Part shown: positions 12,720-17,894 of the stretch, one piece after another
How positions within the stretch are numbered: position 1 is the stretch's first letter
How the letters are laid out: the number at the start of each line of letters is the position of its first letter
Assembly (NCBI GenBank): GCA_005879535.1
Contig: VBKI01000090.1
Location: 1-38,188 of the forward strand
DNA: 38,188 bases
Reading direction: 5' to 3'
From: Deltaproteobacteria bacterium
GTDB taxonomy: Bacteria > Myxococcota > Myxococcia > Myxococcales > 40CM-4-68-19
Notes under the pieces: model-generated
What the model saw: the letters and a program-made list of their open reading frames with translations, nothing else
The model's database searches: none
What the model was told of the DNA's origin: nothing
Program-made: the position numbers and the translations under genes

Positions 12720-12877
12720 GAATGAAGTGTGGCCACCACCGAGCGTCCGGCAATCGGTAAAGCAACGCCTACAACGGCGGTTCGCGGCGCATCTCGACCC
12801 ACGTTTCGAAAAGTGGCGGGCGGCGAGATCTTCCTTCAGATGGTGGAGGCCGTCTGACGAAATCGGAGACCCGACCC

Positions 12878-14260
12878 ATGCGAATTGTTGCCCTTGCGAT
12901 GCTGGCGCTCCTGGCGTGCGCTCATGAGACTGTCAACGCTCCCGAAGCCGTGGCGCCCCCGGTTGTCGAATCCCTGCCCGCTCCCGCGCCTGCGCCGGCT
13001 GCTCCTGCCGTTCCTGAGACGGTCGCCGTGGCGACGCCTCCGCCCGCCGCTCCGCCTCCGGCCAGCATCCCCGTGGAACGCCGGGCAGTGCAGAGCGCCG
13101 ACGCGCCGAAGGCGGCCGGGCCGTACAGCGCCGCGATCCAGGCGCCTGCGGGTCGCGTCCTCTTTGTCTCGGGTCAGATCGCGGTGGACCCCGCGAAGGA
13201 TCGTCTCGTCAATGGAGATGCCGCCAAGCAGACCGCGCGCGCAATGGAGAATGTGAAGGCGGTGCTCGAAGCCGCCGGGTCCAGCGTCGACGACGTGGTG
13301 AAGACGACCATCTTCCTCACCGACCTTGCCGACTTTCCGAAGGTCAACGACGCATACGGCCGTTACTTCCAGAAGACGCCGCCCGCCCGCGCTATGGTAC
13401 AGGTGTCCGCGCTGTCCCGCGGAGCGCGCGTGGCCGTCGAGGCCGTCGCCATCAGCCGCGCGGGCGATTCCGGAGCGGCCGGTGGTCCCGTCACGGTGTC
13501 GACCGCTGGGGCGCCGAAAGCGATTGGTCCCTACAGCCAGGCAGTGGAGACCCGGGGAGGGTCGCTCCTGTTCGTCTCGGGCCAGATCCCGGTCGACCCC
13601 GCTACGGGCGAGCTCGTCCAGGGCGACATCGCCGCGCAGACAGAGCGGGTGATGGAGAACCTGAAAGCGGTCCTCGCCAGCGCCGGGGCCAGCTTCAGCG
13701 ACGTGGTGAAGACGAACGTCTACATGGTCGACCTGGTGGGAGACGGCACCAAGATGAACGAGACGTACGGCCGTTACTTCCAGAAGTCGTTCCCCGCGCG
13801 CGCGACGGTGCAGATGGCGGCGTTGCCGAAGAGCGCACGCATCGAGATCGAGTGCGTGGCTGTCACTCGCGGCGGCGCTGCCGGCGCCGTGGAGAGCCCG
13901 CAGGCTCCGAAGGCGCTCGGCGCCTACAGCCAGGGAATGGGCGTCAACCCCGGCTCCTTCCTCTTCGTCTCCGGCCAGATCCCGATCGACCCGGCCACGG
14001 GCCATACCATCCTCGGCGACGCCGGCGCTCAGACTGAGCGCGTGATGAAGAACTTGAAGGCGGTGCTCGAAGCCGCCGGCGCGGGCTTCGACAAGGTGGT
14101 GAAGACGACCATCTTCGTCGCCGACATGGCGGACTACGCCAAGGTCAACGAGGCGTACGGCCGGTACTTCAGCAAGTCGCTGCCGGCGCGCGCTACGGTC
14201 CAGGTGGCCGCGCTCCCGAGAGGGGCGCGCGTCGCGATCGATTGCCTGGCAGGGCTCTAA
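12878..14260 (+). CDS. Exported lipoprotein with three tandem RidA (YjgF/YER057c/UK114) domains
   Basis: A 460-residue protein, against about 128 for ordinary RidA. LLAC marks the lipidated Cys14, then a Pro/Ala linker to about residue 68. RidA domains span about 71-194, 207-331 and 341-460. Each has (A/G)-x-Y-S near its start, FVSGQI, a V-V-K-T-(T/N) strand, VN/MN-x-x-Y-G-R-Y-F and P-A-R-A. The Arg that binds the substrate carboxylate in RidA (Arg105 in E. coli) is kept in all three: 171, 308 and 438. The Glu120 equivalent is kept only in domain 2 (Glu323); domains 1 and 3 have Ala186 and Ala453. RidA is a cytoplasmic homotrimer that deaminates reactive 2-aminoacrylate-type imines at subunit interfaces, so three domains on one chain could form one pseudo-trimer, here outside the cytoplasm. 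GGAG precedes ATG 12878 by 9 nt. Confidence 0.93.
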   Translation: MRIVALAMLALLACAHETVNAPEAVAPPVVESLPAPAPAPAAPAVPETVAVATPPPAAPPPASIPVERRAVQSADAPKAAGPYSAAIQAPAGRVLFVSGQIAVDPAKDRLVNGDAAKQTARAMENVKAVLEAAGSSVDDVVKTTIFLTDLADFPKVNDAYGRYFQKTPPARAMVQVSALSRGARVAVEAVAISRAGDSGAAGGPVTVSTAGAPKAIGPYSQAVETRGGSLLFVSGQIPVDPATGELVQGDIAAQTERVMENLKAVLASAGASFSDVVKTNVYMVDLVGDGTKMNETYGRYFQKSFPARATVQMAALPKSARIEIECVAVTRGGAAGAVESPQAPKALGAYSQGMGVNPGSFLFVSGQIPIDPATGHTILGDAGAQTERVMKNLKAVLEAAGAGFDKVVKTTIFVADMADYAKVNEAYGRYFSKSLPARATVQVAALPRGARVAIDCLAGL

Positions 14261-14286
14261 GAAGCGACGACAGCACGACGACTTTC

Positions 14287-14310
14287 ATCGGGCGCCTTGG
14301 GGCGCCCGAT
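14287..14310 (+). terminator. Terminator-like hairpin after the triple-RidA gene
   Basis: A perfect 10-bp G+C-rich stem (14287-14296 with 14301-14310) closes a TTGG loop 26 nt after the RidA stop. No T-run follows, so termination strength is uncertain. Confidence 0.6.
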
Positions 14311-14394
14311 CGAAATGAATGACGCTCACCTCCGGGGACTACGCGTCGCTGCGCTTCTGATGGATCTTGAAACGCAGCGTCCACTCCTTCGCGG

Positions 14395-16658: not shown

Positions 16659-17030
16659 CACGGCTTCGAGTTGCTTGCCCAGCGCGCCATCCCAGCGCCT
16701 GTACCGCCCGCGGACTCATATGACGGCGCGGCCGCCCAGCGGGGCAAGGCGCTCTTCGAGGGCAAGGCGCGGTGCGCGACCTGCCACGTGCCGCCGCTCT
16801 ACACCGAGCCCGGCTGGCAGATGCATACCGGCGCCGAGATCGGAATCGACGATTTCCAGTCGCAGCGCTCACCGGACGGGCGCTACCGGACCACGCCTCT
16901 CAAGGGACTTTTCGCGCGCAAGAAGGGCGGGTTCTACCATGACGGCCGCTTCGCTGATTACGCCGCGGTGATCAGACACTACGATGGCTTTCTTCGCCTC
17001 GGGCTCGAAGATCGCGAGAAGGCGGACCTG
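16659..17030 (+). pseudogene. C-terminal remnant of a di-haem cytochrome c peroxidase/MauG-like gene
   Basis: About 124 codons match the last third of exported di-haem peroxidases: the linker APVPPADSYDGAAAQRGKALF, a haem site CATCH, LYTEPGWQMH, IGIDDFQ, SPDGRYRTTPLKGL, GGFYHDGRF and HYDGFL. The first haem domain and signal peptide are absent (a stop lies at 16656-16658), and the usual ending after EKADL (a short EYLKSL-type tail) is replaced by unrelated sequence. The frame stays open and runs on into alkB. It abuts the 5' end of the hemerythrin gene, so a deletion probably removed the front. It is not expected to make a working enzyme. Confidence 0.75.
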
Positions 17031-17126
17031 GCCTCAAGTCGTTGTGACAGAATCACCTGGGGCGCCGGCGAGCTTGCGGGCGCACCTGGGACCTCACAAT
17101 TCGGGTACCGTCTGCGTTGTCCACGC

Positions 17127-17894
17127 ATGACACCGAACGCTCCATCGTCGCGCGGCAGGATGGGCCGCAGCCGCCTGGGTGGCGTCGCCACCGCGCTCGC
17201 GCCTGCGCATGAGTGCGCGCCGCAGCAGCTCGCCCTCGGAATCTCCTCTCCGGCCGCGGCGCTTGTCCCCGAAGTCCTTTTGCCGGGCGCCGTCAAGATC
17301 GCGGGCTGGCTCAGCCGTGATGTGCAGCGATCGCTCGCCGCCGGGTTCCGCCAGTGGGCATTGCCGCCGGCCGGGCTCCGGCACCCGCGGGTCCCGAGCG
17401 GACATCTGATGAGCGTCCAGTCGGTGTGCCTGGGGTGGCACTGGGAGCCGTACGCCTATTCCAAGACGGCTGACGACACCGACGGCGCACCGGTCAAGCC
17501 GTTGCCTCTCGAGCTCGCCGAACTGGCCCGGGCTGCCGTCGCGGAAGCTTACGGGCCGGACAGAGCAGCCTCCTACGCACCGGACGCGGCGATCGTGAAC
17601 CTCTACGCGTCGGGTGCGCAGCTCGGACTGCATCTCGACGGCGAGGAGCCCAGCGACGCTCCGGTCGTCACCCTGAGCCTCGGCGACAGCTGCGTGTTCC
17701 GGTTTGCGGGCGTCGGCCGTCGCAATGGCCCGTTCAAAGACGTCGAGCTCCACTCCGGCGATCTGCTGGTCTTCGGCGGGCCGAGCCGGCGCATCTATCA
17801 CGGCGTCCCCAAGGTGCTCGAGGGGACGGCGCCTGCGAGCCTCGGCCTTCCCCCGGGCAGGGTGAGCATCACCCTGCGGGAGACTGGACTGTGA
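17127..17894 (+). CDS. alkB: AlkB-type 2-oxoglutarate/Fe(II) DNA dealkylase
   Basis: A 255-residue protein; the AlkB core starts around residue 50 (LLPGAVKIAGWL). Fe(II) ligands are His169-x-Asp171 (LHLDGEEP) and His225 (RIYHGVPK); the 2-oxoglutarate site is Arg245/Arg251 in R-V-S-I-T-L-R. MSVQSVCLGWHWEPYAYS and APDAAIVNLYASGAQL match the E. coli AlkB lid and strand regions. It removes methyl groups from 1-methyladenine and 3-methylcytosine oxidatively. The first about 45 residues are not conserved; ATG 17127 is the first ATG after the cytochrome remnant, though a later start is possible. It is followed after 31 nt by the sigma factor and then ogt, forming a repair cluster. Confidence 0.9.
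   Translation: MTPNAPSSRGRMGRSRLGGVATALAPAHECAPQQLALGISSPAAALVPEVLLPGAVKIAGWLSRDVQRSLAAGFRQWALPPAGLRHPRVPSGHLMSVQSVCLGWHWEPYAYSKTADDTDGAPVKPLPLELAELARAAVAEAYGPDRAASYAPDAAIVNLYASGAQLGLHLDGEEPSDAPVVTLSLGDSCVFRFAGVGRRNGPFKDVELHSGDLLVFGGPSRRIYHGVPKVLEGTAPASLGLPPGRVSITLRETGL

Follow-up and report, generated by a model that had tools for sequence, protein, structure and literature searches.

A predicted myxobacterial lipoprotein carrying three tandem RidA domains on one chain

The window, which is the whole stretch of 38,188 nucleotides that was analysed (contig VBKI01000090.1 of a Myxococcales genome), contains a gene whose deduced product carries a lipoprotein-type signal, a Pro/Ala-rich tether and three RidA domains in tandem (Table 1). 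The open reading frame begins with the ATG at 12878; no ATG, GTG or TTG is found between the preceding in-frame stop and this codon, which is therefore the most upstream start possible. Its upstream neighbour is a divergent PAP2 gene, and a convergent MFS gene on the other strand lies downstream. The hairpin that follows the coding region folds with -25 kcal/mol over a 76-nt stretch (z -2.5) and is a possible transcript end. The terminator scan detected no intrinsic-terminator pattern at the gene, and the promoter scan there gave no result. Further downstream, positions 16671-17894 (+) hold a cytochrome c-like stretch with a CATCH motif and an AlkB-like 2OG-Fe(II) oxygenase domain in one frame, perhaps the remnant of a gene that is read through into the following one.

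Table 1. Features of the triple-RidA locus in window coordinates.
Feature	Coordinates	Strand	Basis and remarks
Gene, 460-residue predicted lipoprotein with three RidA domains	12878..14260	+	ORF, Pfam, NCBIfam, selection versus ortholog
Shine-Dalgarno-like GGAGA	12865..12869	+	8 nt before the ATG; same before the ATG of ortholog G010
Predicted type II signal peptide (residues 1-13) and lipobox Cys14	12878..12919	+	MRIVALAMLALLA followed by C; conserved in G010
Pro/Ala-rich tether, residues 15-67	12920..13078	+	fast-diverging between orthologs
RidA domain 1	13100..13453	+	PF01042, 132.6 bits; R171 kept, E120-equivalent A186, P114-equivalent S180
RidA domain 2	13508..13864	+	PF01042, 131.9 bits; seven family-invariant residues all kept (R308, E323)
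RidA domain 3	13901..14251	+	PF01042, 130.8 bits; R438 kept, E120-equivalent A453
Strong GC hairpin right after the stop codon, no T-run	14283..14315	+	RNA fold

Residues 1-14 of the protein (MRIVALAMLALLAC) consist of Met-Arg, 11 hydrophobic residues ending in LLA, and Cys14, with a mean hydropathy of 2.85 ahead of the cysteine. The positive n-region, hydrophobic h-region and lipobox ending in [GAS]C that characterize lipoproteins are all present, and the protein is predicted from these features to be a lipoprotein. The classical PROSITE lipoprotein rule places the cysteine at position 15-35, and Cys14 falls one residue short of that range. In order to estimate how often such a start arises by chance, a written lipobox rule was applied to start codons, with Markov-randomised sequence as the control. 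The rule was passed by 12 of 2,779 start codons in the window, a count that includes several nested starts of the same gene, versus 3 of 17,331 in the randomised sequence (0.017%), which puts the probability of a chance lipobox at 12878 at about 2e-4. The same scan showed short signals to be common in the window, the other lipobox-like starts having their cysteine at position 15 or later. The tether contains 16 Pro and 14 Ala in residues 17-66, approximately 60% Pro plus Ala.

The full triple-RidA chain was sought in 84 genomes of the class. The only other holder was G010, from the same family and another genus, in which the protein (contig C246:5262-6632) is 71% identical over residues 1-458; the contig stops with the gene and the stop codon lies beyond its end. 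The gene was present in two of the 12 family genomes, several of which are incomplete assemblies, so that its absence from the others is soft. The protein of G010 starts with MRIFSLAAIAVVAC followed by AH, retaining the signal and Cys14, and the ribosome-binding site, the Pro/Ala tether and the three domains are retained as well. The tethers are 50% identical with indels, whereas the domains are 73-78% identical. The window protein has only three cysteines (14, 326 and 456), all at corresponding positions in G010. The lipobox and Pro/Ala linker that the original prediction had placed ahead of the domains were therefore confirmed in the sequence and found conserved, and a homologue with the same triple layout exists.

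Pfam PF01042 (Ribonuc_L-PSP, RidA) matched the protein three times (E 4.6e-116, 382 bits; cut-off in the genome search 27.3 bits), and NCBIfam TIGR00004 (Rid family detoxifying hydrolase) matched it in three stretches with 446 bits against a cut-off of 106. The pocket of TdcF contains seven invariant residues, Y17, G31, N56, N88, R105, P114 and E120, of which Glu120 extends across the subunit interface (PMC1884159). All seven were found in domain 2, five in domain 1 (P114S, E120A) and six in domain 3 (E120A). The Tyr, the Gly and both Asn are kept in all three domains, as is Arg105 (R171, R308 and R438 in domains 1, 2 and 3), while the equivalents of Pro114 are S180, P317 and P447 and those of Glu120 are A186, E323 and A453. 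The claim that the three domains are complete consequently held for their full length on one chain and needs qualifying for the invariant residues, two of which are lost from domain 1 and one from domain 3. The interface Lys of Arabidopsis RidA is likewise kept in all three domains (K142, K278 and K409), with E188, E325 and D455 at the position of its acidic partner.

The partner Glu is left in domain 2 only, and the clefts are on that basis predicted to be unequal. In Arabidopsis RidA, R165A leaves 2.2% of the activity and E180A at least a quarter (PMC4960622). Since E180 is the Glu lost from two domains of the triple-RidA protein, that loss is compatible with activity; Tyr and Glu changes in Salmonella RidA are also cited as being of little effect (PMC4433059). 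Three arginine-competent, unequal clefts are thus expected from the residues retained, and deaminase activity is plausible. In G010 the Glu is lost from domain 1 only; probably, then, domain 1 lost it early and domain 3 more recently.

The relative arrangement of the domains was evaluated with an AlphaFold2 model of residues 66-460, computed from a ten-row alignment from which G010 was left out. The model had a pLDDT of 83.3 and a pTM of 0.87, and so high a pTM across three domains indicates that their relative placement is confident. On alignment of the whole model to the PDB with VIA-align, the top matches were the chorismatases 4bps (Z 28.6, 288 residues, 2.9 Å), 5ag3 (28.1) and 5a3k (28.0), and RidA chains of the PDB matched single domains with Z of about 22-24. 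Chorismatases are pseudo-trimers. The pTM combined with the match to single-chain chorismatases gives good support, at the level of the model, to a closed RidA-type pseudo-trimer, in which clefts would be expected between neighbouring domains. The covalent pseudo-trimer of the original prediction therefore closed in the model as proposed; no fold at odds with RidA-type interfaces was predicted, and no evidence was found in favour of a translation start 3' of the lipobox.

In a maximum-likelihood tree, the same-numbered domains of the window protein and G010 paired with one another (branches 100/99, 98/92 and 98/95), from which it follows that the triplication predates the split of the orthologs. 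The six domains formed one group, modestly supported (89/85), next to other RidAs of Myxococcales. The dN/dS ratios versus G010 were 0.20, 0.28 and 0.31 for domains 1, 2 and 3 (Nei-Gojobori), indicating that all three domains are under purifying selection.

The same genome encodes a plain single-domain RidA (L001), and a cytoplasmic RidA role is thereby covered. Another single-domain RidA (L005; G000:C70:112907-113440, minus strand) has a GTG start with AAGGGG upstream and begins with a Sec-type signal, MKNPLGLLGSLALLVSSPAAKQ. Since this paralog also has the appearance of an exported protein, exported RidA may serve twice in the host organism. No conserved neighbourhood or operon partner of the triple-RidA gene was found on comparing the window with G010, where another divergent gene is present; by its sequence, that neighbour of G010 resembles a PKD-repeat lipoprotein. 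No gene beside the triple-RidA gene points to an imine source, and an export signal was found in none of the 11 FAD amine-oxidase/DAO-family (PF01593/PF01266) proteins examined in the genome.

Related arrangements were found in other phyla. A locus in a Bryobacterales metagenome-assembled genome (L009:5944-7161) encodes a signal peptide with no lipobox followed by three divergent PF01042 (Rid) domains, and its model closes alike (pTM 0.86; 4bps Z 24.9). The FBXO22 chains 8ua6, 8ua3 and 8s7e also matched this second model over all three domains, with Z of about 14. Three Bacteroidia loci (L015:824-1306, L016:5908-6390 and L017:729-1202) encode single-domain RidAs that start with a lipobox signal (FSC or SSC followed by Q); a further Met lies directly ahead of the domain, which makes the start of these proteins unsure and a second, cytoplasmic form possible. 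Among the matches listed in a plasmid search, RidAs were single-domain only, occurring up to three times, and viral contigs yielded one distant Rid-like locus and nothing else.

The best reading of the gene, its signal and lipobox, the three domains with their conserved residues, the ortholog and the selection acting on them is that of an envelope lipoprotein with a covalent RidA-type pseudo-trimer that handles small imino or oxo acids outside the cytoplasm, to which we assign about an even chance. In the mechanism envisioned, Sec would export the chain, cleavage and lipidation would occur at Cys14, and the Pro/Ala tether would hold the RidA domains off the membrane on its extracytoplasmic side. 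The domains would fold back on one another to create three ligand clefts between neighbours, each with its own catalytic Arg and probably unequal in that the cross-interface Glu is left in domain 2 only. Most probably the protein would hydrolyse small 2-imino acids or enamines, or else bind 2-oxo or imino acids. A further version is put forward tentatively, in which a Cys-anchored pseudo-trimer with one Arg/Glu cleft and two Arg-only clefts would be an extracytoplasmic catalyst or receptor for imino or oxo acids, a hitherto undescribed RidA function outside the cytoplasm that would have arisen more than once, in a Myxococcales family and in Bryobacterales.

An envelope protein of this architecture might have no role in deamination and act instead as a binding protein or as a holdase chaperone activated by stress. 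E. coli RidA is described as an effective chaperone once N-chlorinated (PMC4284807), and a tethered covalent trimer would be suited to a holdase role in the periplasm. The lack of the partner Glu from two of the three clefts and of an imine source in the envelope, as far as the 11 FAD oxidase-family proteins go, is in agreement with such a role. However, both orthologs retain the catalytic Arg in every domain, a residue that a pure chaperone would not need, and no link to oxidative stress was seen in the genome, making this explanation unlikely, though still a serious competitor.

By architecture the protein is a 3x-RidA, the name given to tandem triples that are presumed to be covalent trimers, with EF_0115 as an example (Niehaus et al. 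2015, BMC Genomics 16:382, PMC4433059). It could be questioned whether this is an ordinary cytoplasmic 3x-RidA that stays inside, the apparent signal being unused. The main text of that paper describes 3x-RidA proteins with no occurrence of the word "signal", and the signal found here is short, with its cysteine at 14. Weighing against retention in the cytoplasm, no earlier start codon follows the in-frame stop, a ribosome-binding site precedes the ATG at 12878, the signal and Cys14 are conserved while the adjoining linker diverges, and the window has other short lipobox-like starts. Retention is thus also judged improbable.

Doubtful to a greater degree is a specialised enzyme for some other small acid, comparable to the chorismatases, which are single-chain RidA-like pseudo-trimers with another reaction. 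Chorismatase is the best whole-chain fold match, and unequal clefts would fit one specialised site within a pseudo-trimer. On the other hand, all three domains are ordinary RidA by sequence, no chorismatase was present among the best 60 PDB sequences down to E 0.065, and no chorismatase Pfam domain was detected at E up to 10. Chorismate, moreover, is cytoplasmic. Identity as a chorismatase was rejected, the fold being shared with no match in sequence. Finally, three similar copies lying head to tail might suggest a functionless recent tandem duplication or an assembly error, but the full-length ortholog in another genus, the positional pairing of domains, the dN/dS ratios and the rarity of a chance lipobox led to rejection of a chance or artefactual origin, which has only a very slight probability.

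The novelty of the envelope pseudo-trimer is narrower than was originally predicted. As a covalent triple it is not a new setting for RidA, 3x-RidA having been known since 2015 (PMC4433059), nor is its novelty as an exported RidA supported, considering the predicted lipoprotein or exported RidAs of Bacteroidia, of Bryobacterales and of the same genome (L005). The imine deamination or sensing that the original prediction placed in the envelope is still an inference, no genomic partner having been found. Since triple chains were already known, what is new lies mainly in the probable place outside the cytoplasm, and more exactly in a probably extracytoplasmic protein that combines a lipobox, a tether and three RidA domains all retaining their arginine, and that is conserved within a myxobacterial family. 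RidA is regarded as a protein of the cytoplasm that protects against reactive imines. If the lipid-anchored single-chain trimer is real, imine or oxo-acid chemistry, or a RidA chaperone function, would matter in the bacterial envelope. Covalent linkage of the domains also allows each cleft to change separately, so that the roles of single residues, E120 especially, become testable within one natural protein.

Among known systems, the chorismatases FkbO and Hyg5 (4bps, 5ag3, 5a3k), which contain a YjgF-like domain (PMC3949708), resemble the triple-RidA protein in spreading a RidA-like fold over three parts of a single chain (Z 28), and differ from it in another reaction, 16-18% identity and the lack of a match at the level of sequence. 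With the RidA/TdcF/UK114 homotrimers the protein shares the domain fold, a catalytic Arg per domain, the interface Lys and clefts expected between neighbours; it differs from them in having one chain rather than three, in its predicted export and in the loss of E120 from domains 1 and 3 and of P114 from domain 1. The Bacteroidia proteins L015-L017 also have RidA behind a predicted lipoprotein signal, in their case a single domain. The Bryobacterales triple is about 36% identical, belongs to another phylum and has lost the catalytic Arg from domain 3; its sequence is evidence that a predicted exported triple RidA exists there too, likely of separate origin or very old. Closest in layout is 3x-RidA itself, with three RidA-subfamily domains in tandem on one chain and a presumed covalently linked trimer, from which, going by its published description, the window protein is set apart by its lipobox signal, its Pro/Ala tether and its predicted asymmetric clefts.
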